Shown here: positions 20 through 11,160 of the stretch, piece by piece
How the letters are laid out: every line of letters starts with the position of its first letter
How positions within the stretch are numbered: the first letter of the stretch is position 1
From: Hyphomonas sp.
GTDB taxonomy: Bacteria > Pseudomonadota > Alphaproteobacteria > Caulobacterales > Hyphomonadaceae
Reading direction: 5' to 3'
Assembly: GCA_003486945.1 (NCBI GenBank)
Contig: DNFL01000295.1
Coordinates: 1-11,160 of the forward strand
Length of the DNA: 11,160 nucleotides
Notes under the pieces: generated by a model
What the model was told of the DNA's origin: nothing
The model's input: the letters and a program-made list of their open reading frames with translations, nothing else
Database searches by the model: none
Program-made: the position numbers and the translations under genes

Positions 20-550
20 ATCCAGTAAAGCACAGGGGTGCGGCTGATTACCAGATCGCTGATTCAGCCGAAAAGGGCGGCAGGTGTGGCAGGCGCCGAA
101 TCCCCGCCCGCCCCGCTCGACTAAGAATGCTCGCAATCCCGCCTCCAGATCATCAGCCAGACGCGAAGCAGCGCCGCCTGCATCAATCGTCCGTGAGAGC
201 ATCCGGACAGGATCATCGCCGATAAACTCCATCCCTGAAGGTGTGACTTCAAGCATGATCGATCGGCCGTCCCGGGCGTTCGCCTTGCGCTCTATCATCC
301 CCTTCGCCTCCAGCGCAAGCAGGGTTTGCGAAACCGTTCCACGTGTGGAGCCGAGATATTCGGCAAGTGCAGCCGGCGTGCGTGAAAACCGGTTGGCTCG
401 GGCAAGGTAGCGCAGTGCTTCCGCCTGGGCGGGGTTGAGCCCGGCCGCATGATCACCAGCACGCAGCAATCGCCCGAGCCGCTCAATCAGGTGGGCTGCG
501 CGCAAGCCGGAAGAATTTGGTAGCGAGTCGATCTTTTTCATTGACGCCAT
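1..550 (-). CDS. MarR-family transcriptional regulator with C-terminal Cys motif (3' partial)
   Basis: The minus-strand frame opens at the ATG at 550-548 (second ATG at 541-539) and runs off the window edge. The trustworthy part is 177 codons, 550 down to 20; the last 19 bases look like adapter. A winged helix-turn-helix spans about residues 38-108: recognition helix near TRGTVSQTLLALEAKG (69-84), wing near ARDGRSIMLEVTPSG (93-106). This is the MarR pattern. The C-terminal extension reads FGACHTCRPF (151-160), then PHPCALLD (170-177), giving C154, C157 and C173. As I recall, relatives with this tail carry one more Cys downstream, which would suit a metal or redox site, but that part is missing here. 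The gene diverges from the protoglobin operon, and a 19-bp palindrome lies 11 bp upstream of its start. It is probably the local repressor and autoregulated; its ligand is unknown. Confidence 0.85.
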   Translation of the reverse strand, partial: MASMKKIDSLPNSSGLRAAHLIERLGRLLRAGDHAAGLNPAQAEALRYLARANRFSRTPAALAEYLGSTRGTVSQTLLALEAKGMIERKANARDGRSIMLEVTPSGMEFIGDDPVRMLSRTIDAGGAASRLADDLEAGLRAFLVERGGRGFGACHTCRPFRLNQRSGNQPHPCALLDRSGERR

Positions 551-560
551 CTGAGCCTAT

Positions 561-579
561 TAGTATTGAGTCGATACTA
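561..579. promoter_or_regulatory. Candidate MarR operator (19-bp palindrome)
   Basis: TAGTATTGAGTCGATACTA is an inverted repeat about a central base. The outer six bases pair perfectly (TAGTAT/ATACTA) and the inner GA/TC also pair; only one symmetric pair mismatches. It lies in the 62-bp gap between the divergent MarR and protoglobin starts and overlaps the minus-strand -10 candidate. Size and placement are typical of MarR operators. An eight-base piece of it, GAGTCGAT, recurs at 525-532 inside the MarR gene, possibly by chance. Confidence 0.7.
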
Positions 580-602
580 CCAAGTTTTCCGCATCCTCGC
601 AA
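574..602 (-). promoter_or_regulatory. Candidate promoter of the MarR gene
   Basis: On the minus strand TTGCGA (602-597) and TAGTAT (579-574) are spaced by 17 bp, and each matches the sigma-70 consensus at 4 of 6 positions. The -10 lies inside the palindrome, as expected for autorepression. The plus-strand promoter for protoglobin is less clear: TTGACG at 541-546 is a possible -35 but no good -10 follows at the right distance. Confidence 0.4.
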
Positions 603-612
603 GGAGACCTAC

Positions 613-1197
613 ATGACAGCCATCCCCGGCTATCGCCTGAACGACCCGACTCTGCCGCCTTCGCCTGTTTCACCTCAGGACTTCGAGGAACTGAAAGCCT
701 CATTGCTGTTCGGGCCGGCCGATGTCGCGGCGCTGAGACGCGCCCATGAGGTTCTGGCCCCGCAGGTCGAGGCGATCCTTGATGTCTGGTACGGCTTCGT
801 CGGCAGCAATCCCCATTTGCTGCGCTACTTCTCCACTGAAACCGGCGAGCCCGTCGGCCCTTATCTGGATGCCGTTCGCAAACGGTTCGGCCAGTGGATC
901 CTTGATACCTGCAGAGCAGACTACGACGCGGCCTGGCTCGCCTGGCAGGATGAAATCGGCAGGCGTCATCACCGTATCGGCAAGAACAAGACAGACGGTG
1001 TCAGAGCCGCGCCGCATATCCCCATGAGTCAGCTGCTCGCGCTCGCTATCCCGATTTCGGTCACGGTCAGGCCGTTCCTCGTAAAGTCTGGCAACTCACC
1101 AGACGATGTAGACGCCATGCATGCAGCCTGGACGAAGTCCGTCTGGCTGCACGCCATCCTCTGGGCGCGACCTTACGCAATTGCCGGCGACTTCTAA
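613..1197 (+). CDS. Protoglobin (single-domain globin-like haem protein)
   Basis: The 194-residue protein strongly resembles archaeal and bacterial protoglobins (about 195 residues). Shared blocks include IPGY at the N-terminus, the DVWYGFVGSNPHLL stretch (57-70) with W59 and Y60 on the distal side, VRKRFGQWILDTC (88-100), and the F-helix segment EIGRRHHRIGKNKTD (114-128) whose H119/H120 pair holds the proximal haem ligand (His120 in Methanosarcina protoglobin). The protein ends in GDF, as that archaeal protein does. Protoglobins are cytoplasmic haem proteins that bind O2, CO and NO. I chose the ATG at 613 because AAGGAG lies 7 bp upstream (601-606) and homology begins there; the frame is open back to 517, but that part would cover the operator and lacks similarity. 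It is the first gene of the operon facing the MarR gene. Its role in gas sensing or NO detoxification is inferred. Confidence 0.93.
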   Translation: MTAIPGYRLNDPTLPPSPVSPQDFEELKASLLFGPADVAALRRAHEVLAPQVEAILDVWYGFVGSNPHLLRYFSTETGEPVGPYLDAVRKRFGQWILDTCRADYDAAWLAWQDEIGRRHHRIGKNKTDGVRAAPHIPMSQLLALAIPISVTVRPFLVKSGNSPDDVDAMHAAWTKSVWLHAILWARPYAIAGDF

Positions 1198-1235
1198 GTT
1201 TTAAATCGAAGCACAACCATCAGGGAAAAGATCAT

Positions 1236-1994
1236 ATGCGTTTGTCGTCACTCCTACTTTTTAGCACGTTCGCGAGCTTTAGCACGGCTTGTTCAGTCGC
1301 TGGGCACGGCCACCATGTTCATGAAAACAAGGACGGCGAGATACACGACGAAGCCGATGCGACGATGGCCGACTTCGATATCGTGCATGCCCGCGTCACC
1401 CGGGACTCGAATGCTCTCGTCTTTCACATGCATGTGTCGGGAAAAGCAGGCGATACCCGCCCGACAGCGCGTGGAACGCTCGCTTCTGCCGAGGTCTTCT
1501 CATACGTCTGGCCGACATCGCTGGACTCATCGGTAGTCGGGTTCGAGGCTGATCAGGGAATACTGGCATTCGCCGTCACAGCCCATCCGGACTTCGACGA
1601 CACGCCCCTCTATGATGAAGACGGAAACGGCAACAAAGATGATGATGGCTATCTTTGGCACAGCCACTGGGTCGTGCTGGTGCCGGATGATGCTTGCGGG
1701 CCAGGAGCGCTCAAAGTCAAAGACATCCCTCCAGGGCAGAGCCCCCGCGTCCCACCGACTTGGCCAGGCTTGCCTATCCTTATCGACAGTCCCGACATTC
1801 CAGTGACCATGGATGCAGCCGCCGTTGCTGTACGGGTGCCGTTTGCCGACGCATCCGAACTGAAAGATGTCCGGTTTGATGCGGTGACTGCTGGTTTGCA
1901 GGTCAATGCCAATGTGCATGCGCCCTTGCTTTGTGTGCGCGATGTCTTCGACATCGCCTCCAATGACCTTAGCCTGCCCGGTCGCGTGCGATGA
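1236..1994 (+). CDS. Exported His-rich protein of unknown family
   Basis: I do not recognise this 252-residue family. It starts with a short hydrophobic signal sequence (about 3-18) ending STAC; C19 could be lipidated, but the lipobox is imperfect because Ser replaces the usual Leu at -3, so a plain secreted protein is possible. Just after it comes a His cluster, GHGHHVHE (23-30), and further His residues occur in FHMH and WHSHW (141-145). Residues 127-138, DEDGNGNKDDDG, form an Asp/Asn/Gly loop like calcium-binding repeats. A periplasmic or outer-surface metal-binding protein is therefore plausible, but no enzymatic function is visible. The gene starts 38 bp after protoglobin, with AGGGA (1222-1226) as ribosome binding site, and its stop overlaps the next start by ATGA (1991-1994), so it is translated with the haem protein downstream. 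Confidence 0.8.
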   Translation: MRLSSLLLFSTFASFSTACSVAGHGHHVHENKDGEIHDEADATMADFDIVHARVTRDSNALVFHMHVSGKAGDTRPTARGTLASAEVFSYVWPTSLDSSVVGFEADQGILAFAVTAHPDFDDTPLYDEDGNGNKDDDGYLWHSHWVVLVPDDACGPGALKVKDIPPGQSPRVPPTWPGLPILIDSPDIPVTMDAAAVAVRVPFADASELKDVRFDAVTAGLQVNANVHAPLLCVRDVFDIASNDLSLPGRVR

Positions 1995-2233
1995 CGGGCG
2001 AGGCCTTTTCATTGCGCACGCCGAATCCGACTTCAGGCTTCGAACTCGCCATTCGGCTGGCCCGGCTGGCGGTGAAGACTACCCAGCCAGACGCGGACAT
2101 TCGCAGATCCCTTCGAGCTGACTACGACCAGAATGCCGGGCTGCTAATCGAGATCAGCCACATCGTTGCAGTGCATTTCAACACGATAGCTGCTGCCAAC
2201 GCATACTGGCTCGATCCGGAGTTGGCGCAATGA
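1991..2233 (+). CDS. Hexameric tyrosine-coordinated haem protein (HTHP)
   Basis: The 80-residue product matches the small HTHP family, known from Silicibacter (Ruegeria) pomeroyi, a hexamer with one haem per subunit and reported peroxidase/catalase-like activity. Family-like stretches are GFELAIRLARLAVKTTQPDA (16-35), the RRSLRADYDQN segment (38-48) and VAVHFNTIAAANAYW (59-73). Y45 sits at the position I recall for the haem-ligating tyrosine, and R25 is also present. The length is close to the family norm. The start codon overlaps the previous stop (ATGA, 1991-1994) and the stop overlaps the next start (ATGA, 2230-2233), so translation is probably coupled. No signal peptide is evident. Beside protoglobin it gives the operon two unrelated haem proteins, which fits handling of peroxide or reactive nitrogen; that role is inferred. 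Confidence 0.92.
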   Translation: MTGEAFSLRTPNPTSGFELAIRLARLAVKTTQPDADIRRSLRADYDQNAGLLIEISHIVAVHFNTIAAANAYWLDPELAQ

Positions 2234-2763
2234 TCGAACCGACACCCGCACCTGAGTGGATAATCGCCCAGTGGCTGAACACGAGCGCACCTCTCTCCGT
2301 TGAAGTACTGAGAGGGAAGGTTATCCTCGCGGTCGCGTTTCAGATGCTCTGTCCGGGCTGCGTGAGCCAGGGTCTGCCGCAGGTCCAGCGGGCACGCGCA
2401 ACCTTTGCCCCGGACGACCTCGCCGTGATCGGTCTGCACACGGTGTTCGAACACCATGCGGCGATGACGCCGTTGTCGCTCAAGGCTTTTCTGCATGAGT
2501 ACCGCATTGGTTTTCCGGTCGGTGTTGACCAGCCTGATGGCTCGGGCGGACCGCCGCTCACCATGCGCGCTTATGAAATGCGCGGCACGCCGACAACGCT
2601 GTTGATTGATCGCCAGGGTCGTCTGAGGACACATGCTTTCGGTCACCTGCCCGACCTGCAGCTCGGTGCAGAACTGGCCACACTGATCGGCGAGCGCCCG
2701 CTCGGGAGCACGCGACCCAGCGGAGAGCCCGGCGGCGTGTGCACGCCTGAAGGTTGCTCATGA
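2230..2763 (+). CDS. Thioredoxin-fold redoxin (TlpA/peroxiredoxin-like)
   Basis: The 177-residue protein has a thioredoxin fold. VILAVAFQMLCPGC (31-44) contains a CxxC redox pair, C41/C44, and RGTPTTLLIDRQGRL (118-132) contains the cis-proline loop (P121) facing the active site. The insert between them is longer than in classical thioredoxin, as in TlpA/AhpC-TSA proteins. The extreme C-terminus adds a second pair in GVCTPEGCS (C171, C176), which could be a resolving or metal-binding tail. No signal peptide is seen, so cytoplasmic action is likely. The start overlaps the HTHP stop and the stop overlaps the dioxygenase-like start (ATGA, 2760-2763). A thiol reductase or peroxidase acting with the haem proteins is a reasonable inference; the substrate is unknown. 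Confidence 0.85.
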   Translation: MIEPTPAPEWIIAQWLNTSAPLSVEVLRGKVILAVAFQMLCPGCVSQGLPQVQRARATFAPDDLAVIGLHTVFEHHAAMTPLSLKAFLHEYRIGFPVGVDQPDGSGGPPLTMRAYEMRGTPTTLLIDRQGRLRTHAFGHLPDLQLGAELATLIGERPLGSTRPSGEPGGVCTPEGCS

Positions 2764-3137
2764 CCGGCGCGCCCGCGCCTTGTCCCGCGGCGCTGCTCGA
2801 TCGCATGAGGGATGAGGTTCGGCGCTCTGGCTTCACATTCGTGAACGGGGAGGCGACGAAGTTGCTGCTCACAAGTGAATCAATTGAAAGCTGGGACGCC
2901 TTCGCGGAAAGCTGGGATGGGCTGGGGGCGGACCAATATATGGCGGGCGGCGGAAGCTATCGCCGCCGCTGCCATGCGGTGTTTTCATTGCGCCCGGGCG
3001 TTCTGCTACGGCGGGAACATCAACATGGGTGTTCCGTCGTTGAGTTGCACAATCGCCACCGGCCTCACTCGACCCTTGGCAAGGCTACGCCCAACGAGGC
3101 ATACGAGGACGAAATCGAACAGAAGAAAGCGGCCTGA
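2760..3137 (+). pseudogene. 2OG-Fe dioxygenase-like gene, truncated and fused to a transposase tail
   Basis: The frame starts at the ATG overlapping the redoxin stop and encodes 125 residues. Residues 1 to about 88 resemble the N-terminal part of the 2OG-Fe dioxygenase family that includes isoleucine hydroxylase (Pfam 2OG-Fe_Oxy_2): see SWDGLGADQYMAGGGSYRRR (51-70) followed by CHAVFSL. Members are usually about 200-250 residues with an HxD...H iron site in the second half; all of that is missing. From about residue 89 the sequence changes to ELHNRHRPHSTLGKATPNEAY (95-115), the end of an integrase-core transposase. An insertion plus deletion therefore probably removed the rest of the gene, and by chance the frame stayed open to the transposase stop. 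The product is unlikely to be an active dioxygenase. The upstream part shows the operon once had a fifth member. Confidence 0.8.
3027..3137 (+). mobile_element. Remnant of an IS transposase (C-terminal tail, IS3/IS481-like)
   Basis: The last 36 or so codons of the fused frame encode HNRHRPHSTLGKATPNEAY followed by a charged tail and a stop. The N-RPHS-LG--TP-E-Y pattern is the hallmark C-terminus of IS3/IS481-type transposases with a DDE integrase core. The DDE residues and the left end are absent. The left boundary (about 3027) is where dioxygenase similarity stops. The right end probably continues past 3137 into non-coding IS sequence, perhaps to around 3210, but I cannot identify a terminal inverted repeat. 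Confidence 0.7.
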
Positions 3138-3430
3138 TCAACAACCCGGATATACCTTAGAAGGACCGGAAATCTGTGCAGGAAAGCAGGGCCAGCTCAG
3201 TCTACACCGGTCGCGGACAAAGCATCCTGCTCGAACGTGAGAAAATCAAAAGGAGGACGATGAAATTGCGGCGCTTGCGGCAAGCAGGGTCCGCTGCTTA
3301 GTTCAAACCCAGATGTGCCAGACCCTCCTTAAGTTAGGCGGCCTGATGTCTCAAAGTACCTGACTGCGGACAGCGGTGAATATCGATTTAGCCTAGACGA
3401 TTTATCAGGTCAGCCTTCTTCCGAAAGACC
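3138..3430. other. Intergenic scar between IS remnant and TSUP gene
   Basis: No convincing gene lies here. The first part is probably the non-coding end of the IS. At 3260 a tiny frame of 13 codons (MKLRRLRQAGSAA) follows AGGAGG only 3 bp away, which is tight spacing and not persuasive. AAGCAG-GGTCCG-CTGCTT (3282-3299) forms a 6-bp hairpin but no T-tract follows. The start of the TSUP gene is also unclear, so part of its promoter or N-terminus may have been lost in the same rearrangement. Confidence 0.5.
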
Positions 3431-4507
3431 TTGTGCTTGGAAACGAAAAAGAACCCGGACAAAACTGTCACCTCGACCGGCGCGCATTTTTGGCCCTTCC
3501 CGGTTTGGCTCGGCGCTTTCTACAGCGTCTGGCTATTGCTTATGGTCAATCTCGACGCCTGGTCGCAGGTCGCATCAAATTGGGGAATAGCCGTGGCGAT
3601 GGCCTTCGGGTCTTACTTTGCTGGCTCCACGCCCATGGGGGGCGGCACAGTCGGATTTCCTGTGCTCACCTTACTGTTCGACCATCCGGCTTCTCTGGGC
3701 CGAGACTTCGGCCTTGCGGTACAGTCAATCGGCATGGTTTCGGCGAGCGTTTTCATATTTGTCCGGCGTCGTCCGGTAGACTGGTCCCTTTTGGGCCCTG
3801 CGCTTATCGGCTCAGCGGTGGGAACTCCTATTGGCTCGGCCTTCGTTGCCCCGCATATTCCGGACCTTGCCGTGAAGCTCATCTTCGCCGTGACCTGGGC
3901 GGCGTTTGGCATCATTCACTGGCTAAAGATTGAAGCGATCGTTCGTCCGGAGGGGCCACGTGTCCCCCATGACCGTCTCGATCGCCCGCTTGGATTACTC
4001 GTTGGTGTCGCTGGTGGCATGCTCGCCGCCGTAACGGGTGTCGGTATAGATATGATGATCTACGCGCTGCTCGTGCTGTTCTACAGATGTGATCTGAAGG
4101 TCGCTATACCGACTTCCGTGATCCTTATGGCCTTCACCTCTGTGATTGGTATTCTCAGCAACATCGGCCTGTCTGTTTTCGCTCCCAAACAATACATGGT
4201 CGATATCAATGTCCTCTGGAACTGGCTTGCCGCCGCCCCAGTCGTGGCGCTCGGTGCACCGCTTGGCGCCATTGTTATCGAGCGGCTCCCACGCGCGCCG
4301 ACGCTCCTGATCGTGTCAACGCTTTGCGTCGCTCAACTGGTCTGGATGCTTATCGATCAGAGCGTAATGGGCTGGCAACTCGCGCTGACCCTAGTTGCGC
4401 TCGGTGCGATCAGCGTTCTGTTTCTCCACCTCTTCCACCTCGGGCATCACAACCATTTTGCCATTGCCGGTGACAAACCTGCGGCTTCGGACAAGGTTGC
4501 AAAGTGA
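3431..4507 (+). CDS. TauE/SafE-family (TSUP) membrane transporter
   Basis: The 358-residue integral membrane protein has about eight to nine hydrophobic segments, near residues 24-40, 52-66, 73-83, 95-111, 120-140, 148-164, 186-216, 225-250, 262-284, 291-308 and 316-336 (some form pairs). Gly-rich AGSTPMGGGTVGFPVLT (64-80) and GVAGGMLAAVTGVGID (192-207) are the repeated motifs of the TSUP/TauE-SafE fold, whose members export sulfite, sulfoacetate or related anions, or take up sulfur compounds. The C-terminus has a His cluster, HLFHLGHHNH (333-342). The start is uncertain: the frame is open from 3392 but has no ATG before residue 38. TTG at 3431 or 3437 is the best choice, with only a weak purine stretch (3424-3427) upstream. 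The N-terminus may thus be damaged by the adjacent IS scar. The substrate cannot be told from sequence. Confidence 0.82.
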   Translation: MCLETKKNPDKTVTSTGAHFWPFPVWLGAFYSVWLLLMVNLDAWSQVASNWGIAVAMAFGSYFAGSTPMGGGTVGFPVLTLLFDHPASLGRDFGLAVQSIGMVSASVFIFVRRRPVDWSLLGPALIGSAVGTPIGSAFVAPHIPDLAVKLIFAVTWAAFGIIHWLKIEAIVRPEGPRVPHDRLDRPLGLLVGVAGGMLAAVTGVGIDMMIYALLVLFYRCDLKVAIPTSVILMAFTSVIGILSNIGLSVFAPKQYMVDINVLWNWLAAAPVVALGAPLGAIVIERLPRAPTLLIVSTLCVAQLVWMLIDQSVMGWQLALTLVALGAISVLFLHLFHLGHHNHFAIAGDKPAASDKVAK

Positions 4508-4690
4508 GTTGGACACTCGAAGCCGATCTGAGAGCCGCAGGCAATTCTGCGCATTTGGCTTGCGGGCCCGCATCAAAGAACAATTCGGGACGTGCCTTGT
4601 TTCCGGCGTCACGAGCCGGTAGTCCGAAATCTGCGCTTGCTGGCGCAACCCTATCCGAGTGCAAATCCAGCCAAGTCGTATCCACTGATT
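4508..4690. other. Gap between convergent genes
   Basis: This 183-bp stretch separates the stops of the TSUP gene and the M19 gene. It contains TGCGGGCCCGCA (4561-4572), a perfect 12-bp palindrome with no loop, so not a standard terminator. No hairpin followed by a T-tract was found for either gene. Long open frames crossing it show no recognisable protein. Confidence 0.5.
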
Positions 4691-5839
4691 TCACACCTCG
4701 TGCATTGCCCAGACGCGCAGGAAATTGCCTCCAAGGAAGGCGGCCAGTTCCACCTCGGTCATTCCCTTGCGCGAAAGAAGCGCCACGAGATCCGGCAGAC
4801 GGCGATAGTCATCAAAGACGGGCTTGTAGTTTGCATCAATATCCGTTCCCAGACCCACATGCTTGCTGCCGAGAAGATCCACAAGTTCGATTATCCGATC
4901 GGCAAACCCGGCCATATCCTGAATTTCGATACCAGCCGGCCATGCGCCGAATACCCCGCCTGCCTCAGCACCAGCCTTTGCAAGTTCCAGAGAGATAAAA
5001 CGGGGATGGTAAGAATGTGCTGTGCTTATGTGCGTGTGCGAAAAGAGAACCGGTCGTGTACTGACTTCCAGCGCCCTGAAAGCCCCAGCCTCTGACATAT
5101 GAGACAGGTCAATCATCATGCCCAGCCGGTTCATTTCTCTGACAATGGCGTCGCCCTGAAGTGTCAGTCCATTGTGTAACGGAACATTGGTCATGGCGTC
5201 CGCGATCTCGTTTGTCCTGTAGTGCACAAGAGTGATTGACCGCACGCCATCCTGATAGGCTTCGTTGAGACGCTCGATCGATCCTTCAAGGAAGTCACCT
5301 CCCTCGACAGTCCAGATCGCCCCGGGAGTTCGGGATTGCCGCGCGGCTTCGATCGATTCGGAAGAGAGCATTTCGGTAACGGAATTGCGTGCGGCAAGCT
5401 TTTTCAGGTTCCCTATCTGGATCTTGTAGCTCGCCCATGCTTCACCTTCACCGAATGCGCGGCGAGCCGTAATTCCAGTTTGGTTCGACAGGGCAAGGAC
5501 ATTGAAGTCGGATACGGCGGCGAAACAGGCCGCCGCCAGCCCCCCTTTCCTCATGTCCGCAATAGCGCGACCTTCAAAGCCCGACTGAGCCTGATAGACC
5601 CGCAGAAGGGCGGGCAATCCGCTGGCGTCCCGAGCGAAGGTCCGACCCGGATGGGCATGAATATCGATCGCAGGATACTTCTCGAGAAGGGCAACTCCAT
5701 GTGCCCGCTCTTCCGCCGTCACTTCAAAGCCCATGGGCGGCGGGGCCGGGCGCGCCCGCAGCCAGTAAGCTCCATAGGCAGCCCCCGCTCCGGCGGCGAG
5801 CCCGCCTCCGACCAGTGCCCGTCGTGTCATGCGATTCAT
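4691..5839 (-). CDS. M19 membrane-dipeptidase family protein with Tat-type signal
   Basis: The 382-residue protein begins MNRMTRRALVGG, a twin-arginine-like motif followed by an Ala/Gly-rich hydrophobic stretch to about residue 27, so export to the periplasm, perhaps with the signal kept as an anchor, is likely. The frame is open to 5872, but only a TTG is available there and the Tat motif supports the ATG at 5839. M19 zinc-site landmarks appear in order: DIHAHPG (59-65), E179 in TVEGGDFLEG, H247 in MIDLSHMSE, H268 in PVLFSHTH, and D333 in GLGTDID. One difference: the first motif is normally HxD, here H61-A-H63. The family hydrolyses dipeptides, and some members act on lactams or other amides. 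It is divergent from the GH78 gene, with an ATTGGT-N3-ACCAAT palindrome in its promoter, so it seems co-regulated with the sugar genes. Its substrate and link to sugar use are unknown. Confidence 0.85.
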   Translation of the reverse strand: MNRMTRRALVGGGLAAGAGAAYGAYWLRARPAPPPMGFEVTAEERAHGVALLEKYPAIDIHAHPGRTFARDASGLPALLRVYQAQSGFEGRAIADMRKGGLAAACFAAVSDFNVLALSNQTGITARRAFGEGEAWASYKIQIGNLKKLAARNSVTEMLSSESIEAARQSRTPGAIWTVEGGDFLEGSIERLNEAYQDGVRSITLVHYRTNEIADAMTNVPLHNGLTLQGDAIVREMNRLGMMIDLSHMSEAGAFRALEVSTRPVLFSHTHISTAHSYHPRFISLELAKAGAEAGGVFGAWPAGIEIQDMAGFADRIIELVDLLGSKHVGLGTDIDANYKPVFDDYRRLPDLVALLSRKGMTEVELAAFLGGNFLRVWAMHEV

Positions 5840-5912
5840 GTTTCGTACCCGTATCAACTGGAAAATGTCCAAACGAACATTACCGCAACCAATGTTTCAA
5901 TTTGCACACACT

Positions 5913-5932
5913 CATATATTGGTCAAACCAAT
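5913..5932 (-). promoter_or_regulatory. GntR-type operator O1 with -10 of the M19 gene
   Basis: ATTGGTCAAACCAAT (5918-5932) is a perfect 6-3-6 palindrome. It equals the PdhR consensus ATTGGTNNNACCAAT and resembles sites of other FCD-type GntR regulators. On the minus strand the ACCAA half runs straight into TATATG (5918-5913), a 4-of-6 match to a -10 box, so a bound repressor would cover the promoter. It lies about 80 bp upstream of the M19 start and could also act on the GH78 gene. Degenerate half-sites occur nearby at 5888-5893 (ACCAAT) and 5963-5968 (ATTGGT). Confidence 0.72.
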
Positions 5933-6035
5933 TTACAGATCTGAGATGTCGACAAGTACCCTATTGGTGGTCATCTTTTTCCAGATAATGCATCCTTACG
6001 CGACCCCGCGACAGGAACTATCGACAGCGCCCCTT

Positions 6036-6050
6036 TTTGGTCGTACCAAT
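6036..6050 (+). promoter_or_regulatory. GntR-type operator O2 upstream of GH78 gene
   Basis: TTTGGTCGTACCAAT matches the same 6-3-6 palindrome; TTGGT/ACCAA pair perfectly and only the outermost pair differs. It lies 34 bp before the GH78 start codon, within the expected promoter/leader. No clear -10 or -35 could be assigned on the plus strand. Confidence 0.7.
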
Positions 6051-6083
6051 CTTTCAGGGCGGGAAGTCGGGAAGAACTGAAGC

Positions 6084-8636
6084 ATGTACAGGCGCGCACA
6101 TTTTATCTGGACGCCGGATCAGCAGATCGACGAGACGGAAGTGTTCCGGACGCTGGTCCGGGACGGACCGAAGGACAGGCGCGATGGCCTCAATCGCTGG
6201 GTCTTTTTTCGCCGGGAGTTTTGTCTTGGCAGCGACCCGGTATCGGCAAAGCTAAGTATTACCGCCGACAGCCGGTACCTACTTTATGTGAACGGAGCCC
6301 GAATCGGCCGCGGCCCGCCGAGGTCTGCCGCACACGTCCGGCTCTATGACACATATGATCTCGGTAGCGTTCTGAAAGAGGGCACGAATGTCATTGCCGC
6401 CCTTGTCCATGTCTATGGACGCGACACGGCATGGTATGAAATTGGCCAGCGCTATCCACGATCCATATTCGGCGACGGCGGTCTCTGGGTTGAGGCGGAT
6501 GTCGTTCTTGCCGGCGAAACGTTCACTATACTGAGCGATGCGGACTGGAAGTGCCTGACATCGGATGCCTGGCGAGCAGACGCACCTGTGGCAGGCTGGG
6601 GACAGGGTTCTATTGAAGACGTCGATGGCAGACGCCTGCCCGAGGATTGGACACGCGCCGGTTTTGACGATTCTGAATGGACGGCGGCCCGGGAGATGGT
6701 GTGGGAAGGCATCGAGTATGAGCGCGCAATGGGCTGGGGACCTCATGAAGCCTTTCCGACCATCAAAGCAAGCGATCTGCCTGAACTATTACAAGAGGTG
6801 AACTATCCGGTCCATTTGGAGGGCATCTACGCCGTGACACCGGATGACACGAAGGATGTCGACCGGCGCATTTTTGAGGAAACCTTATCGCCAGCGCAAG
6901 CAGCAGCGTGTGAAAATGCCACGGCACTGCTCATCGAAGGGGATACCACGCTCATTCGGACGGTCGGGGACGAGGACACCAGCATACTCGTCGATTTTGG
7001 TCTGATTCATACAGGATATCCCTTTGTCGAATTTTTCGCCGAAGGTGGTGAGATCATCGAACTGGCCGCCTCGGAAAAGATTGCCGGCGACTATCAGGAA
7101 CCACGCCCGGACCTGCCGCGCATCGAACGCAGGACCCATCTCGACTGCGCTCAGATCTTCCGGTACCGGGCACGCCCCGGGCTGCAACTTTACGAAAAGT
7201 TCGACTGGACGGCGGTACGGTATCTTCAGCTCACGGTCAGAAATGCACCTAAGGGTATCTCGGTCAGGCGATTGGGTTCGGTTCGGACAGCCTATCCTGC
7301 GGGCGAAGCGGGACGGTTTGCCTGCTCAGACCCATTTTTCAACGAGCTCTGGAGGATTGGACGATACACGGCCCTGCAGTGCACACACGACGCCTGGTGC
7401 GACGGGCCTGGGCGAGAAAAGCGCCAATGGGTTGGCGATGGCCTCGTCCACTATCTCGTCAACGTTGCCGCATTCGGATGCGGCACAAACGCCGTAGATC
7501 GCCAGTTCCTTCGCGCCGCTGCCGATGCCCAGCGCCCTGACGGACTGCTCCAGATGTTTGCGCCCGGTGACCATCATCGGGACGGTGTTGCCATCGCTGA
7601 TTTTCCACTTCACTGGATCTGCGCGGCTGAACAATACCTTCAGTATACAGGTGACATCGATTTTGTCGCGACACTGTTTCCGGCGGTCCAGAAGGCGCTC
7701 CAATGGTATGAGCCGCACCGCGATGGCGACGGGCTTGTCGTAAATCCGCCTCTCTGGCGCTTCATCGAATGGGCAGCCCTGGACCGCTCTGGTGCGTCGG
7801 CGGCAATGAATGGACTTTATCTTCTCGCCCTGCAAGCTGCGGGCCGGATCGCCGAATCGCTCGAATATGGCCATGCGCGCAGCACCTATGCCCGCGAAGC
7901 GAAACGCGTGACGTCAGCGCTGCAAAATCGGATGTGGGACCCATCAAGGCAGCTCTATGCGGACGCCTCAGACCCTGCAACTGGACGTCTATCGAAGCGA
8001 TATTCCCAGCAGACCAACGCACTGATGGTTCTTGCCGGCGTCGCTCCGGAGGCGCTGCAGAACGGCATTCTTTCCCGGATCACTCAGCCCGAACATACGC
8101 GCGTCTCCCCCTTGCCTCCTGTCGTCACCGGCGATGCCGACTTCGACGAGGATCGTCATATTGTCCGTGCCAATACATACTTCGCGCATTTTCTGTACGA
8201 CGCGCTGATGAAAGCAGGACGTTGCCAGCAAGCACTGCAGTTCATGCGTGACAATCTGGGGCCGATGCTTTCGGCCGGCGCGGAGACCCTTTGGGAAAGC
8301 TATGACCCGAGCGCGAGCCTCTGCCACGCATTTTCAGCTTCGCCAGTCTACCATCTCTCCTCCGGCGTGCTTGGCGTACGCCCGATATCGCCAGGCTTCA
8401 GGACCTTTTCTGTTTGCCCGCTGGTCGGAGATCTGGACTGGGCTGAGGGAACCTTTCCAACGCCGTCCGGGGGCATTGATGTCAGCTGGAAGCTTGACGG
8501 AGACCAGCTGGATATCAGCATAGCTTCACCAGAGGTGCTGACCGGAACTCTCGAAGCGCCCGAGGGCTGGATTTTGGAAACCGGAGGCGGCGCTTTCAGA
8601 CAGGCATCGCAGGCCCGGCTAATCCGCCGCAGGTGA
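6084..8636 (+). CDS. GH78 family alpha-L-rhamnosidase-like glycoside hydrolase
   Basis: The 850-residue protein has the layout of GH78: an N-terminal beta-sandwich lectin-like domain (about 40-250, with RYLLYVNGARIGRGP at 64-78), a second beta domain (about 290-400), an (alpha/alpha)6 catalytic barrel (about 405-760) and a C-terminal beta-sandwich starting near VLGVRPISPGF. The catalytic motif is D440-GPGR-E445-KRQWVG-D452. Its spacing equals Asp567/Glu572/Asp579 of Bacillus RhaB, where the Glu is the general acid. GAETLWESYD supplies E738 as the likely base. GH78 enzymes hydrolyse terminal alpha-L-rhamnosides by inversion. No signal peptide is present, so it probably acts on imported oligosaccharides or glycosides in the cytoplasm. 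The start is the ATG preceded by purine-rich GGGAAGAA (6069-6076). Because the neighbours look like L-fucose-type enzymes, the true sugar may not be rhamnose. The stop lies 6 bp from the end of the convergent aldo/keto reductase. Confidence 0.88.
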   Translation: MYRRAHFIWTPDQQIDETEVFRTLVRDGPKDRRDGLNRWVFFRREFCLGSDPVSAKLSITADSRYLLYVNGARIGRGPPRSAAHVRLYDTYDLGSVLKEGTNVIAALVHVYGRDTAWYEIGQRYPRSIFGDGGLWVEADVVLAGETFTILSDADWKCLTSDAWRADAPVAGWGQGSIEDVDGRRLPEDWTRAGFDDSEWTAAREMVWEGIEYERAMGWGPHEAFPTIKASDLPELLQEVNYPVHLEGIYAVTPDDTKDVDRRIFEETLSPAQAAACENATALLIEGDTTLIRTVGDEDTSILVDFGLIHTGYPFVEFFAEGGEIIELAASEKIAGDYQEPRPDLPRIERRTHLDCAQIFRYRARPGLQLYEKFDWTAVRYLQLTVRNAPKGISVRRLGSVRTAYPAGEAGRFACSDPFFNELWRIGRYTALQCTHDAWCDGPGREKRQWVGDGLVHYLVNVAAFGCGTNAVDRQFLRAAADAQRPDGLLQMFAPGDHHRDGVAIADFPLHWICAAEQYLQYTGDIDFVATLFPAVQKALQWYEPHRDGDGLVVNPPLWRFIEWAALDRSGASAAMNGLYLLALQAAGRIAESLEYGHARSTYAREAKRVTSALQNRMWDPSRQLYADASDPATGRLSKRYSQQTNALMVLAGVAPEALQNGILSRITQPEHTRVSPLPPVVTGDADFDEDRHIVRANTYFAHFLYDALMKAGRCQQALQFMRDNLGPMLSAGAETLWESYDPSASLCHAFSASPVYHLSSGVLGVRPISPGFRTFSVCPLVGDLDWAEGTFPTPSGGIDVSWKLDGDQLDISIASPEVLTGTLEAPEGWILETGGGAFRQASQARLIRRR

Positions 8637-8641
8637 GGCGG
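8624..8641. terminator. Weak hairpin at the convergent GH78/AKR ends
   Basis: CCGCC (8624-8628) and GGCGG (8637-8641) can pair around an 8-base loop that includes the GH78 stop codon, just before the AKR stop. The stem is only 5 bp and no T-tract follows on either strand, so a terminator role is uncertain. Confidence 0.2.
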
Positions 8642-8642
8642 C

Positions 8643-9674
8643 TTATGGTGTCGGGGCTGACGCGACAATGAGCCCTTCAGCCCGGAGTTCCTCCCAGAAT
8701 CCCGCAGGGATAGGGGCAACCAGATGCCGGACATTCTCCCGGACCTCTTCGGCACCGGCCGCGCCAGGGATGACACTGGCCACGATAGGATGGGCCAGGA
8801 CAAACTGAAGGGCAGCAGCCGGCAGTGCAACATCATGTTTCCGGCAGATCCGAACGATATTGCGAACCTTACTGATCATGTCTGCAGTGGCATCTGCGTA
8901 GTTATATTTGGCTTGGTCGACGGCCCCGGTCGCCAACATGCCGGAAGCGAACGGCGCGCCTATCACGACACCAACACCGCGTGCTTCGCATTCCGGAAAA
9001 CCTGCAAGAAGCGCTGACTGATCCAGCAGTGTATAAGGCATCGCGATCAGCAGGAAATCCACATCAAGGTCCATGGCCATCGGTGCGATCATGTCTCCTG
9101 TATTTACACCTGCCCCGATCGCGAGAATGTCACCGGCCCGCTTAAGCTCAGTCAGTGCTCTCATTCCTCCGGAAGTCAGGTGACGCCAGTGCGCGTCAAA
9201 GCCGACCTCATCAGCATGATAGCTGCGGTCCAGGTCATGGATAACCAGCAAATCGATACGATTGAGGCCGAGCCGCATAAGGCTGTCCTCGAAGGACCGC
9301 ATCACGCCCTCATAACCGTAATCGAAGCGCCACTCAAATGGCAGCCCGCCGGCCCAGGGCGCCGAGGAAAATGAAGACGTGTTGGCAGGCCGACGATAGA
9401 CGCGCCCCACCTTCGTACTCAGCATGAAAGCATCCCGCGGCTTTGATCGTAGAACTTCACCAAGACGATGCTCGCTCAGCCCGTGCCCATACCAGGGCGC
9501 CGTGTCGTAGTATCGGATACCGCCCAGCCATGCCGCCTCAACCGTTCCACGCGCTCGATCGTCGTCCAGTTTCTGATACAACTCGCCCAGATGGGCGGCG
9601 CCGAAACCGAAAGCCGGCACAGAGCAACCGGAACTCCCCAGCCGACGGGCGCCGGCCAAGCCTGACTTAATCAT
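8643..9674 (-). CDS. Aldo/keto reductase, L-fucose (D-threo-aldose) 1-dehydrogenase type
   Basis: The 343-residue protein is a full-length aldo/keto reductase barrel. The catalytic tetrad is visible: D57 in YYDTAPWYG, Y62 in the same motif, K88 in LSTKVGR and H146 in LLVIHDLD. The YDTAPWYG-GLSE-RLG pattern, the STKVGR motif and the IHDLD block place it with D-threo-aldose 1-dehydrogenase/L-fucose dehydrogenase and pyridoxal 4-dehydrogenase. These oxidise L-fucose, L-galactose, D-arabinose or pyridoxal to lactones with NAD(P)+. Start: ATG at 9674-9672, preceded on the minus strand by AAGGGGG at about 8 bp. It diverges from the lactonase-like amidohydrolase with a shared GntR-type operator between them, which fits lactone formation followed by lactone opening. 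The sugar-binding loops cannot be judged by eye, so the substrate is inferred. Confidence 0.87.
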   Translation of the reverse strand: MIKSGLAGARRLGSSGCSVPAFGFGAAHLGELYQKLDDDRARGTVEAAWLGGIRYYDTAPWYGHGLSEHRLGEVLRSKPRDAFMLSTKVGRVYRRPANTSSFSSAPWAGGLPFEWRFDYGYEGVMRSFEDSLMRLGLNRIDLLVIHDLDRSYHADEVGFDAHWRHLTSGGMRALTELKRAGDILAIGAGVNTGDMIAPMAMDLDVDFLLIAMPYTLLDQSALLAGFPECEARGVGVVIGAPFASGMLATGAVDQAKYNYADATADMISKVRNIVRICRKHDVALPAAALQFVLAHPIVASVIPGAAGAEEVRENVRHLVAPIPAGFWEELRAEGLIVASAPTP

Positions 9675-9703
9675 GTACCCGCCCCCTTCTCATCGACATC
9701 TTG

Positions 9704-9723
9704 ATTATATTGGTCCGACCATT
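9704..9723. promoter_or_regulatory. GntR-type operator O3 with divergent promoter
   Basis: ATTGGTCCGACCATT (9709-9723) matches the O1/O2 palindrome with one base changed in the right half. On the minus strand the operator abuts a perfect TATAAT (9709-9704), the -10 of the aldo/keto reductase gene; the same operator-then--10 order occurs at O1. On the plus strand TTGATT (9701-9706) and TTTAAC (9722-9727) could form a weak promoter for the amidohydrolase with the operator in the spacer. Binding would block both genes. Confidence 0.72.
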
Positions 9724-9747
9724 TAACCAGAATGAGGGAGGCAGGCA

Positions 9748-10695
9748 ATGCAGATCATCGATGCACACCACCACCTTTGGGATCTGTCGACCTGCGCCTA
9801 TCCGTGGCTGCAGTCCGCCAGTCCAGATGTTGGCTTCCTGGGTGACATTTCGGCGATCCGGAAAAGCTACACAAGTGCTGACTACCGCTCCGACATTGGC
9901 TCGCTCCCGGTGACAGGATCCGTCCATGTCCAGGCCGAACACGATCCTGCCGATCCTGTCGCAGAAACCCGCTGGCTTCAGGCGCAGGCCGACAGACCTG
10001 ATGGCGGCGGCTTTCCTCAAGCCATCGTCGCCTTCGCCGATTTCAGCAAAGGCAATGTAGAAGATATCCTCGCGCGCCATGCTGAGTTTCGCAATGTGCG
10101 CGGCATCCGGCAGATTCTGTCCCATCACCCGGACCCAACCTTCTCGCATGCAGACAGAGAATTCCTGAAGGATCCGCACTGGTGCGCACGGCTCTCAGCG
10201 CTGCGGACGCACAATTTCAGTTTCGACCTGCAGATCTATCCGCATCAGGTGGAAGATGCTCTTTCGCTCATCGATTCTAACCCAAGCATCCTGTTTGTTA
10301 TCAACCATGCCCTTGAACCCTGGAGTCAGTCGGACAACGTGATCGCGTGCTGGAGCGATGGCATAAAAAAGCTGGCACGGCGGGAAAACACAGTCGTGAA
10401 AATATCCGGACTCGGAATGTTCATCCGTCCGTTCAGCGAGGACGCCATTCGCTTCTATGTATTGGCATTGTTAGACATTTTCGGCGTCAACCGGTGCATG
10501 GTTGGCTCCAACTTCCCGGTTGACAAGATGTTCTGTTCTTACGGCGAAATATTCAGCGCATTCGACCGCATCACGCGGTCGCTGTCGACAACCGAACGCG
10601 AAGCGCTGTTTTCAAGGACAGCCGAGCGAACTTACAGACTCAGAGACCGACAGCCGGGCGCCTCCGAAATAGCCCCCTGCCAGCCAATCGGATGA
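9748..10695 (+). CDS. COG3618 amidohydrolase, probable sugar lactonase
   Basis: The 315-residue protein starts MQIIDAHHHLWDL, the H-x-H strand-1 metal motif of amidohydrolase family 2, followed by the YPWL typical of COG3618. Further landmarks are VHVQAEHDP (59-67), GIRQILSHHP (119-128), INHALEPW (185-192) and MVGSNFPVDK (251-260). COG3618 includes L-fucono-1,5-lactonase, L-rhamnono-1,4-lactonase and 2-pyrone-4,6-dicarboxylate hydrolase. The last motif reads GSN-F-P where the best-studied members have a catalytic Asp (GTD/GSDWP); Asn here occurs in some members but bears on mechanism. A strong ribosome binding site, GAGGGAGG (9734-9741), supports the ATG at 9748. Divergent pairing with the aldo/keto reductase suggests it opens the lactone that enzyme makes, in the cytoplasm. 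The symporter gene follows after 31 bp, probably in the same operon. Confidence 0.86.
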   Translation: MQIIDAHHHLWDLSTCAYPWLQSASPDVGFLGDISAIRKSYTSADYRSDIGSLPVTGSVHVQAEHDPADPVAETRWLQAQADRPDGGGFPQAIVAFADFSKGNVEDILARHAEFRNVRGIRQILSHHPDPTFSHADREFLKDPHWCARLSALRTHNFSFDLQIYPHQVEDALSLIDSNPSILFVINHALEPWSQSDNVIACWSDGIKKLARRENTVVKISGLGMFIRPFSEDAIRFYVLALLDIFGVNRCMVGSNFPVDKMFCSYGEIFSAFDRITRSLSTTEREALFSRTAERTYRLRDRQPGASEIAPCQPIG

Positions 10696-10726
10696 CCTCA
10701 TTTCAAGAAGGAAGGCGAATACGAAC

Positions 10727-11137
10727 TTGACCAGAAAGATTCCATCCGGGCTGACGACGGGCGTGAAACTGGCGTGGGCTGTAGGTGAACTACCTGTCGC
10801 CGTTTACGTTGTTCTGACGGTCGGGTTTCTGACTTTTTATGCAACCCAGGCGCTGGGCATCGAGCCATGGCTGGCCGGCGTGGTGCTCCTGATTCCACGC
10901 TTGTGGGACGCCTTCACCGATCCCCTGATGGGGGCGATGTCGGACCGCACGCGCAGCCCGATGGGTCGTCGGCGGCCGTACCTTCTTGCGGGCACCTTTC
11001 TACTTTCGGCCAGCGTACTGGCCCTGTTCTTTGCGCCCGCTGAAGCCTCACAGATGCAAAAGGCTGTCTACCTGCTGGTGACATTCTTCATCGCAAGCAC
11101 TGCAATCACAATCATGGACGAGTACGGCACGTCATAG
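10727..11137 (+). CDS. GPH-family sugar:cation symporter (MelB-like), 3' truncated by artefact
   Basis: The frame opens at TTG 10727 (MTRKIPSGLT), with AAGAAGGAAGG (10704-10714) upstream, and encodes the N-terminal 129 residues of a MelB-like symporter. The hallmark is RLWDAFTDPLMGAMSDRT (58-75) plus SPMGRRRPYLLAG (77-89). D61 and D65 match the two helix-II Asp residues that bind the coupling cation in MelB. At least four membrane segments are present. Trustworthy coding ends at 11113; the last residues MDEYGTS and the stop at 11135-11137 come from a fold-back artefact. Reading the last 47 bases on the other strand repeats IASTAITI and then gives YDVPYSS and the first bases of an M codon, the usual continuation in this family (full length about 450-500). 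The gene follows the lactonase and probably imports the sugar or glycoside used by this locus. Confidence 0.85.
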   Translation: MTRKIPSGLTTGVKLAWAVGELPVAVYVVLTVGFLTFYATQALGIEPWLAGVVLLIPRLWDAFTDPLMGAMSDRTRSPMGRRRPYLLAGTFLLSASVLALFFAPAEASQMQKAVYLLVTFFIASTAITIMDEYGTS

Positions 11138-11160
11138 ATTGTGATTGCAGTGCTTGCGAT
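11090..11160. repeat. Terminal inverted repeat: fold-back chimera at the contig end
   Basis: Bases 11137-11160 are the exact reverse complement of 11090-11113 (24 bp). The 23 bases between them, read on the minus strand, encode in the symporter's frame the expected continuation TAT GAC GTG CCG TAC TCG TCC AT (YDVPYSS, then the start of an M codon). So 11114-11160 is the opposite strand of the same locus joined back on itself. This is a typical amplification or assembly chimera and not a biological terminator. Confidence 0.88.

Follow-up and report, generated by a model that had tools for sequence, protein, structure and literature searches.

Organization of the gene cluster

An 11,160-nucleotide stretch of Hyphomonas sp. 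DNA (contig DNFL01000295.1 of assembly GCA_003486945.1; hereafter the window) carries near its beginning a cluster in which the genes for two unrelated haem proteins, a single-domain protoglobin and the hexameric tyrosine-coordinated haem protein (HTHP), stand together with those for an exported protein (EXP), a redoxin with a CPGC motif and the start of a 2-oxoglutarate-iron (2OG-Fe) dioxygenase. The protoglobin, EXP, HTHP and redoxin genes are co-directional, and a MarR-family regulator gene lies in the opposite orientation, diverging from position 550. The features are listed in Table 1. The identities of protoglobin, HTHP, redoxin and MarR proposed in an initial annotation of this DNA were borne out by profile scores above the cut-offs given in Table 1.

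Table 1. Features of the haem-protein gene cluster and their positions in the window
Feature	Position	Strand	Remarks
MarR-family regulator gene	20..550	-	MarR_2 54.2 bits, cut-off 27; 3′ end lost at contig edge
Second operator-like site, TAGCGAGTCGATC, core CGAGTCG	521..533	.	Within the MarR gene, at its start; read directly
Main putative operator, 19-bp palindrome TAGTATTGA-G-TCGATACTA	561..579	.	Between the divergent genes
Single-domain protoglobin, 194 aa	613..1197	+	PF11563 108.2 bits, cut-off 25, E 5.2e-31
EXP, exported protein, 252 aa	1236..1994	+	Signal present; family without a name
HTHP, 80 aa	1991..2233	+	PF11534 101 bits, cut-off 25, E 4.7e-29
CPGC redoxin, 177 aa	2230..2763	+	AhpC-TSA 29.3 bits, cut-off 26
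Start of 2OG-Fe dioxygenase gene, about 88 residues	2760..3022	+	PF10014 positions 2-40 of 192; broken after 3022
Fused IS3-type transposase remnant	3023..3137	+	rve_3 E 0.0072 and IS3 equivalog E 0.083, both below cut-off

As had been annotated, the EXP/HTHP, HTHP/redoxin and redoxin/dioxygenase junctions consist of 4-bp ATGA overlaps, read directly at positions 1991, 2230 and 2760; the protoglobin and EXP genes are separated by 38 bp. These overlaps, together with a conserved operator and its single near match in each of four of six genomes (see below), give good support to a single operon under local regulation. A scan of positions 480–3500 for sigma-70 promoters found none (1.0 expected) and a search for terminator-like sites in the same interval found two (2.8 expected), while no Rfam match reached gathering scores.

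The MarR regulator and its putative operator

The initial annotation had placed the MarR regulator facing the operon. It is indeed divergent, but its gene is incomplete, because bases 1–19 of the window have no match in the compared stretch of the nearest genome, G001, which is 99.84% identical over positions 20–11113. These 19 bases resemble an Illumina sequencing adapter, so that the beginning of the contig is probably artefactual. The window protein is 98% identical over 177 residues to the G001 frame, which is open there for 195 aa. A C-terminal tail with four cysteines was found by pattern in 33 of 35 MarR sequences, in both classes of these regulators; the two misses were a fragment in which the motif is nevertheless present and a sequence cut short. 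For the first class the tail was part of the search model, and this may bias the result towards it. No Pfam or PDB match covers this tail.

The palindrome noticed initially is real, and similar ones occur at the same place in relatives. When the 62-bp stretch was dinucleotide-shuffled 2000 times, one as good appeared in 16 cases. A CGASTCG core was seen at this position in a locus of the protoglobin–redoxin type (L031; L and G numbers stand for loci and genomes) and in loci of the HTHP or EXP types (L014, L043, L044, L097 and L130), and the core in Ruegeria pomeroyi (L125) differs by one base; the sites were picked by eye from 25 scanned loci, some of which had no MarR match or no such site. 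When six genomes were searched with up to three mismatches, a single place was found in each of G001, G057, G058 and G469 (1, 1, 2 and 3 mismatches, respectively), always at this cluster. There was no match in G050 and G280, and a reversed control matched none of the six genomes. The CGAGTCG core of the second site, which is weaker than the main one, recurs at the same position in L016, L017 and L031. Regulators of the second class are usually co-directional and have another palindrome, with an AGGA-n-TCCT core in L046, L162 and L163.

The two haem proteins

The protoglobin matches the Methanosarcina protoglobin (PDB 2VEB) end to end (4e-56, residues 3–194). Its H119, which we take to be the proximal haem-ligand histidine, aligns with H120 of 2VEB and is invariant in all ten aligned sequences; Y60 aligns with Y61.

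HTHP matches PDB 2OYY (3.6e-21), and the translation of the HTHP gene on the R. pomeroyi megaplasmid does not differ from 2OYY where the two align. All 28 HTHP sequences compared share Y45, R25 and R42, and Y45 is their sole invariant tyrosine. The passages available of PMC4813847 describe a haem with a tyrosine ligand and a distal arginine, and peroxidatic activity in vitro; judging from conservation, Y45 and the invariant R25/R42 would be the residues meant.

EXP and the CPGC redoxin

EXP had been described as a His-rich exported protein. It is an exported protein of a family without a name, whereas the richness in histidine belongs to the N-terminus of this copy and not to its relatives in general, of which 5187 were found at E ≤ 0.001. 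There was no Pfam or NCBIfam match up to E 0.1 and no match in PDB. The window copy shares 56% identity with the Deinococcus protein, 48% with that of R. pomeroyi and 39% with that of Hymenobacter; a STAC motif after the signal suggests that it is a lipoprotein. H117, D119, H142 and H144 are invariant in 61 sequences. An AlphaFold2 model had a mean predicted local distance difference test score (pLDDT) of 55, and a Foldseek search with it against PDB returned nothing at E ≤ 0.001 (178 weaker matches were disregarded); given these two results, we claim no fold for EXP.

The redoxin matches PDB 3EYT, which is R. pomeroyi SPOA0173 (1.3e-60), and scores 19.7 bits against the Redoxin profile, below the cut-off of 26.6. 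The peroxiredoxin active site has the motif PxxxTxxC, which is absent around C41, where the sequence reads FQMLCPGCV. The motifs FQxLCPGCV and VFEHH are kept in 14 of 14 aligned sequences, with CPGC invariant. From the name and the organism, the redoxin gene 3′ of R. pomeroyi HTHP would be the gene of SPOA0173/3EYT; SPOA0173 was named in no open-access paper that we found.

A recurrent module and the neighbourhoods of HTHP

What recurs more widely is a module of MarR, EXP and redoxin, which is joined by HTHP, by protoglobin, by both or by neither. MarR, EXP and redoxin accompany HTHP in L014, L040, L043, L046, L054, L097 and R. pomeroyi, and the gene series EXP–HTHP–redoxin occurs in R. pomeroyi, Pseudohoeflea, Bauldia, Erythrobacter and others. 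The same three occur with HTHP not close in Defluviimonas, Lelliottia, L162, L163, L164, L169, L171 and L174. The dioxygenase is present with the module in L052, and Novosphingobium has the redoxin and dioxygenase and no EXP. Within 2.5 kb of 24 redoxin genes, MarR was found in 12 loci, EXP in 8, protoglobin in 3, catalase in 2, and HTHP and dioxygenase in one each.

We also recorded the neighbours of HTHP within 5 kb in 80 loci, the best of at least 571 from genome contigs, which are biased to near relatives and include two from one genome. The neighbours were Rrf2 (29 loci), DUF2189 (22), ccoN (17), group III truncated haemoglobin (15), EXP (12), MarR (12), redoxin (11), catalase (3), dioxygenase (3), NnrS (3) and MOSC (1); protoglobin was found in two loci, both from the genus of the window. 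As a control, 40 regions of 20 kb were taken at round positions in 13 genomes, and there Rrf2 occurred once, MarR twice and the other neighbours not at all. Against this control the enrichment near HTHP was significant for Rrf2 (one-sided Fisher p 1e-5), DUF2189 (4e-5), ccoN (5e-4), the globin (1e-3), EXP (0.006) and redoxin (0.009), and not for MarR, MOSC and dioxygenase. For a representative Rrf2 protein NsrR was the best-scoring model, below its cut-off.

On a Polymorphobacter plasmid, hmpA, a truncated haemoglobin, Rrf2 and a catalase-family gene lie beside HTHP. Other plasmid HTHP genes are located near metal or mercury genes, near nitroreductase and alternative oxidase genes, or near a haem-binding protein gene, so the link of HTHP to nitric oxide (NO) or respiratory neighbours is not universal. 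In one such case, a conjugative Escherichia coli plasmid (L222, 4980–5928), HTHP adjoins and points towards the gene for the heme-binding protein.

Some further genes were observed in these neighbourhoods. A short gene without annotation, encoding about 93 aa, accompanies HTHP in L074 (10204–10485) and eight other loci, and in eight of the nine it lies downstream on the same strand at a median distance of 6 bp. Class-I glutamine amidotransferase genes occur in or near the module in L230 (7808–8557), L014, L040, L054, L165, L170 and L120 (12842–13537), in one case between protoglobin and redoxin. MOSC-domain genes are found near the module in L164, L125, L130, L119, L127, L133 and L134, in some of them beside MarR.

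Co-occurrence of protoglobin, HTHP and redoxin

The pairing of HTHP with protoglobin is rare and narrowly escapes being peculiar to this contig: three genomes of Hyphomonas and a single plasmid of Hymenobacter have it, and it was found more loosely on an Acaryochloris marina plasmid, where the two genes are 5 kb apart. The full set is present in two close relatives, L039 (PHEH01000004.1, an alphaproteobacterial metagenome-assembled genome) and L038 (VMTE01000009.1, Hyphomonas sp.); G057 and G058 are placed in the genus of G001. Among 105 genomes of the window's family, protoglobin was found in 3, HTHP in 9 and redoxin in 13, and each of the three protoglobin genomes also has the other two genes.

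Among 385 genomes sampled across the class, HTHP occurred in 6, a full-length single-domain protoglobin in 3 (four weak partial matches were excluded) and redoxin in 24. All three protoglobin genomes hold the redoxin (p 2e-4; this and the other co-occurrence tests ignore ancestry and replicon size). The family of G280 has protoglobin in 3 of 82 genomes, which added two cases, and that of G469 in 1 of 8, which added none; the two Hyphomonas relatives were counted as well. The redoxin lies at most three genes from protoglobin in 7 of the 7 distinct alphaproteobacterial single-domain protoglobins found, which represent three lineages and not seven independent cases. It is directly adjacent in G280, G469 and G921, one amidotransferase gene intervenes in G917, and EXP and HTHP lie between the two in the three Hyphomonas loci. 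Catalase and cbb3 genes follow protoglobin–redoxin in G280, G917 and G921. In a phylum-wide sample, protoglobin was found in 2 of 398 genomes, namely G001 and G574, and no module gene lies near that of G574.

Among 72,556 plasmid records, HTHP was present in 26, protoglobin in 7 and both in 2 (p 2.6e-6, plasmid size and ancestry ignored). One of these two is the plasmid of Hymenobacter volaticus, on which HTHP adjoins protoglobin in the company of EXP, catalase, hmpA, Rrf2 and MarR; the other is that of A. marina, in which an 'amidotransferase' gene lies 3′ of protoglobin. The protoglobin of Agarilytica has a divergent four-Cys MarR as its only module gene. The contexts of protoglobin are few: the Bacteroidota are represented by one plasmid, and six of the seven protoglobin plasmids, Hymenobacter included, were read, the seventh being the haloarchaeal plasmid of Natrinema.

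The broken dioxygenase gene and the surroundings of the cluster

Of the annotated 2OG-Fe dioxygenase gene only the start is present. The DNA homology to L016 and L017 (91%), in both of which the gene is intact, ends at base 3022, and the frame beyond it enters an IS3-type tail with a weak rve_3 match. The PF10014 match in the window covers 39 of 192 positions at 21.3 bits, below the cut-off of 23.1, and does not amount to a full domain; the homologue in L016 scores 201.7 bits. G001 carries the same fused frame and has no PF10014 match anywhere, and on this ground the idea that the rest of the gene lies elsewhere in the genome was rejected. The window copy cannot yield a working 2OG-Fe enzyme.

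In L016, which comes from G057, TrbL, TrbF and a weakly matched tyrosine recombinase surround the cluster, and therefore it probably travels on a conjugative element. Carriage by phages was considered and dropped, because in IMG/VR a single contig was matched by the HTHP alignment and no contig with protoglobin was found.

The remainder of the window contains a TauE/SafE-type gene (3431–4507) and, at 6084–11137, genes for an alpha-L-rhamnosidase, an aldo/keto reductase, an amidohydrolase and an MFS_2 protein, which probably form a deoxysugar-use cluster unrelated to the haem-protein operon. The last 48 bases (11113–11160) match G001 in reverse orientation; this fold-back join at the end of the contig disrupts the terminal part of the MFS gene.

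Possible role of the cluster

The initial annotation had proposed one response system for NO, peroxide or O2. Its operon part stands, and the role in peroxide and NO comes from context: catalase, flavohaemoglobin, NsrR-like Rrf2, group III haemoglobin and cbb3 genes recur nearby elsewhere, which suggests such a role. From this context we think it probable that the cluster serves in defence against peroxide and NO or nitrogen oxides, as a mobile cassette under local control. As for sensing, electron flow and physiological role, we infer the following course. MarR would occupy the palindrome at 561–579 and the weaker site at 521–533, silencing its own gene and the operon. Its four-Cys tail, probably binding a metal or an iron–sulfur (Fe-S) centre, would be struck by an oxidant or NO and the repression would be lifted. 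The protoglobin would then bind gas (O2 or NO) and may turn NO over, while HTHP, acting as a small haem peroxidase, would remove peroxide. The CPGC redoxin may give thiol electrons or repair disulfides, and EXP would work outside the cytoplasm. The dioxygenase appears to be an optional extra, lost in the window copy.

Several observations weigh against the defence cassette. The functional evidence for it is association throughout, and the models of neighbouring genes were built from the same HTHP loci with ancestry ignored. None of the sought neighbours was found in 32 of the 80 HTHP loci and in 11 of the 24 redoxin loci, within the distances given above, and neither catalase nor NnrS, in three HTHP loci each, was significant against the control. 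By genome, HTHP and redoxin co-occur at chance level in the class-wide sample (p 0.32). Protoglobins outside the Alphaproteobacteria mostly stand without the module, as in G574, Cupriavidus and the two haloarchaeal plasmids examined, and no HTHP or redoxin lies nearby on the protoglobin plasmids of Agarilytica, Cupriavidus, Halocatena and Halalkalicoccus. Finally, no flavohaemoglobin, catalase or Rrf2 is present among the scanned window genes.

The neighbourhoods could be read differently. The genes ccoN and DUF2189 are found close to HTHP (in 17 and 22 of the 80 loci, respectively), protoglobin–redoxin–catalase leads straight into ccoN in G280, G917 and G921, and HTHP adjoins the 'heme-binding protein' on the E. 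coli plasmid, all of which would fit a cassette that serves low-oxygen respiration instead of detoxification, by helping cbb3 oxidase to mature, protecting it or supplying it with haem; HTHP and protoglobin would then be stores or carriers of haem or O2. We regard this as unlikely: the examined flanks of L016, L038 and L039 contain no ccoN, no COX1 protein is found among the scanned window genes, a ccoN-type cluster lies near the EXP/redoxin module in only 3 of 51 loci, and hmpA, truncated haemoglobin and NsrR-like regulators are equally close elsewhere. Quite unlikely, in our opinion, is that the true stress, judged from the redoxin, MOSC and TSUP partners, is sulfane sulfur, sulfite or N-oxygenated compounds, so that the cluster would deal with reactive sulfur or N-hydroxyl toxins. 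MOSC genes do lie near the module in 7 of 51 clustered loci (those of R. pomeroyi and Phaeobacter immediately adjoin the MarR gene), Novosphingobium has sulfite reductase and cystathionine synthase, and the window has its TauE/SafE-type gene; but MOSC is within 5 kb of HTHP in 1 of 80 loci, and the TauE gene lies past the break at 3022, beyond the homology to the examined flanks of the two intact relatives.

It is also conceivable that unrelated genes were gathered on an integrative conjugative element as mobile cargo and are co-expressed without a joint task. The TrbL, TrbF and recombinase flanks of L016, the 26 plasmid records with HTHP and 7 with protoglobin, the proximity of HTHP to mercuric reductase in Chelativorans and Corynebacterium and the insertion sequence remnant in the window all speak for movement of these genes. 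This possibility nevertheless seems very unlikely to us, as the same families meet, with MarR beside them, in Bacteroidota and Alphaproteobacteria, the operator is conserved, the redoxin accompanies each of the seven alphaproteobacterial protoglobins found, and two of the seven protoglobin plasmids carry both haem families (for which p ignores plasmid size and ancestry). The preferred reading remains the defence cassette, which would accept different haem proteins.

Comparison with known systems

The closest parallel to the window cluster is on the megaplasmid of R. pomeroyi DSS-3, where four of the same families, a divergent MarR with the four-Cys tail and EXP–HTHP–redoxin, stand in the same order with a related operator-like sequence. 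Unlike the window, this locus has no protoglobin or dioxygenase, short gaps replace the ATGA overlaps, MOSC and PDR/VanB genes come after the cluster, and the operator core is off by the one base mentioned above. The H. volaticus plasmid (hmpA, Rrf2, catalase, EXP, HTHP, protoglobin, DUF2024, MarR) resembles the window in the adjoining HTHP and protoglobin, in EXP and in the four-Cys MarR. It belongs to another phylum, however, its order is EXP–HTHP–protoglobin, a redoxin of this type was not detected there, its MarR belongs to the second class and runs in the same direction, its EXP is the one with 39% identity, and it includes catalase and flavohaemoglobin.

Loci for NO detoxification of the NsrR/Hmp type likewise have a haem globin under a dedicated regulator, and NsrR-like Rrf2 is frequent near HTHP; the window regulator is, however, a MarR and not an Rrf2 protein, and the scanned window genes include no flavohaemoglobin or NsrR. 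Thiol-based regulation by peroxide is known from OhrR, a MarR-type system. The MarR family, the divergent promoter and a plausible cysteine chemistry are common to both, whereas in the window type the C-terminal cysteines form a cluster of four that no Pfam domain found includes, and no Ohr partner was seen in the window. That the MarR proteins of the module are new metal-centred (Fe-S or zinc) sensors of NO or oxidants, acting through the four-Cys site and controlling a two-haem detoxification unit in which electrons pass between the SPOA0173-type redoxin and the two haem proteins, is a doubtful proposal at present.

Each of the families was already known, EXP in the form of unnamed proteins. 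Their joint cluster was not found in the open-access literature, including the passages available of PMC4813847, PMC11218638, PMC11841059, PMC3820574 and PMC6956133, subscription papers being outside this search, and no open-access paper was found that contains both 'protoglobin' and 'HTHP'. The literature passages at hand state no cellular role for HTHP, which has a crystal structure and a peroxidase activity in the test tube; the single-domain bacterial protoglobin is in a similar position. With both haem proteins under one dedicated regulator, two questions become one, and it is approachable in R. pomeroyi: in this organism, the source of the crystallized HTHP, the protein lies between EXP and another structurally solved redoxin. 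The cluster also points to a subgroup of MarR regulators with a conserved four-Cys tail and to a large family of exported proteins without a name.

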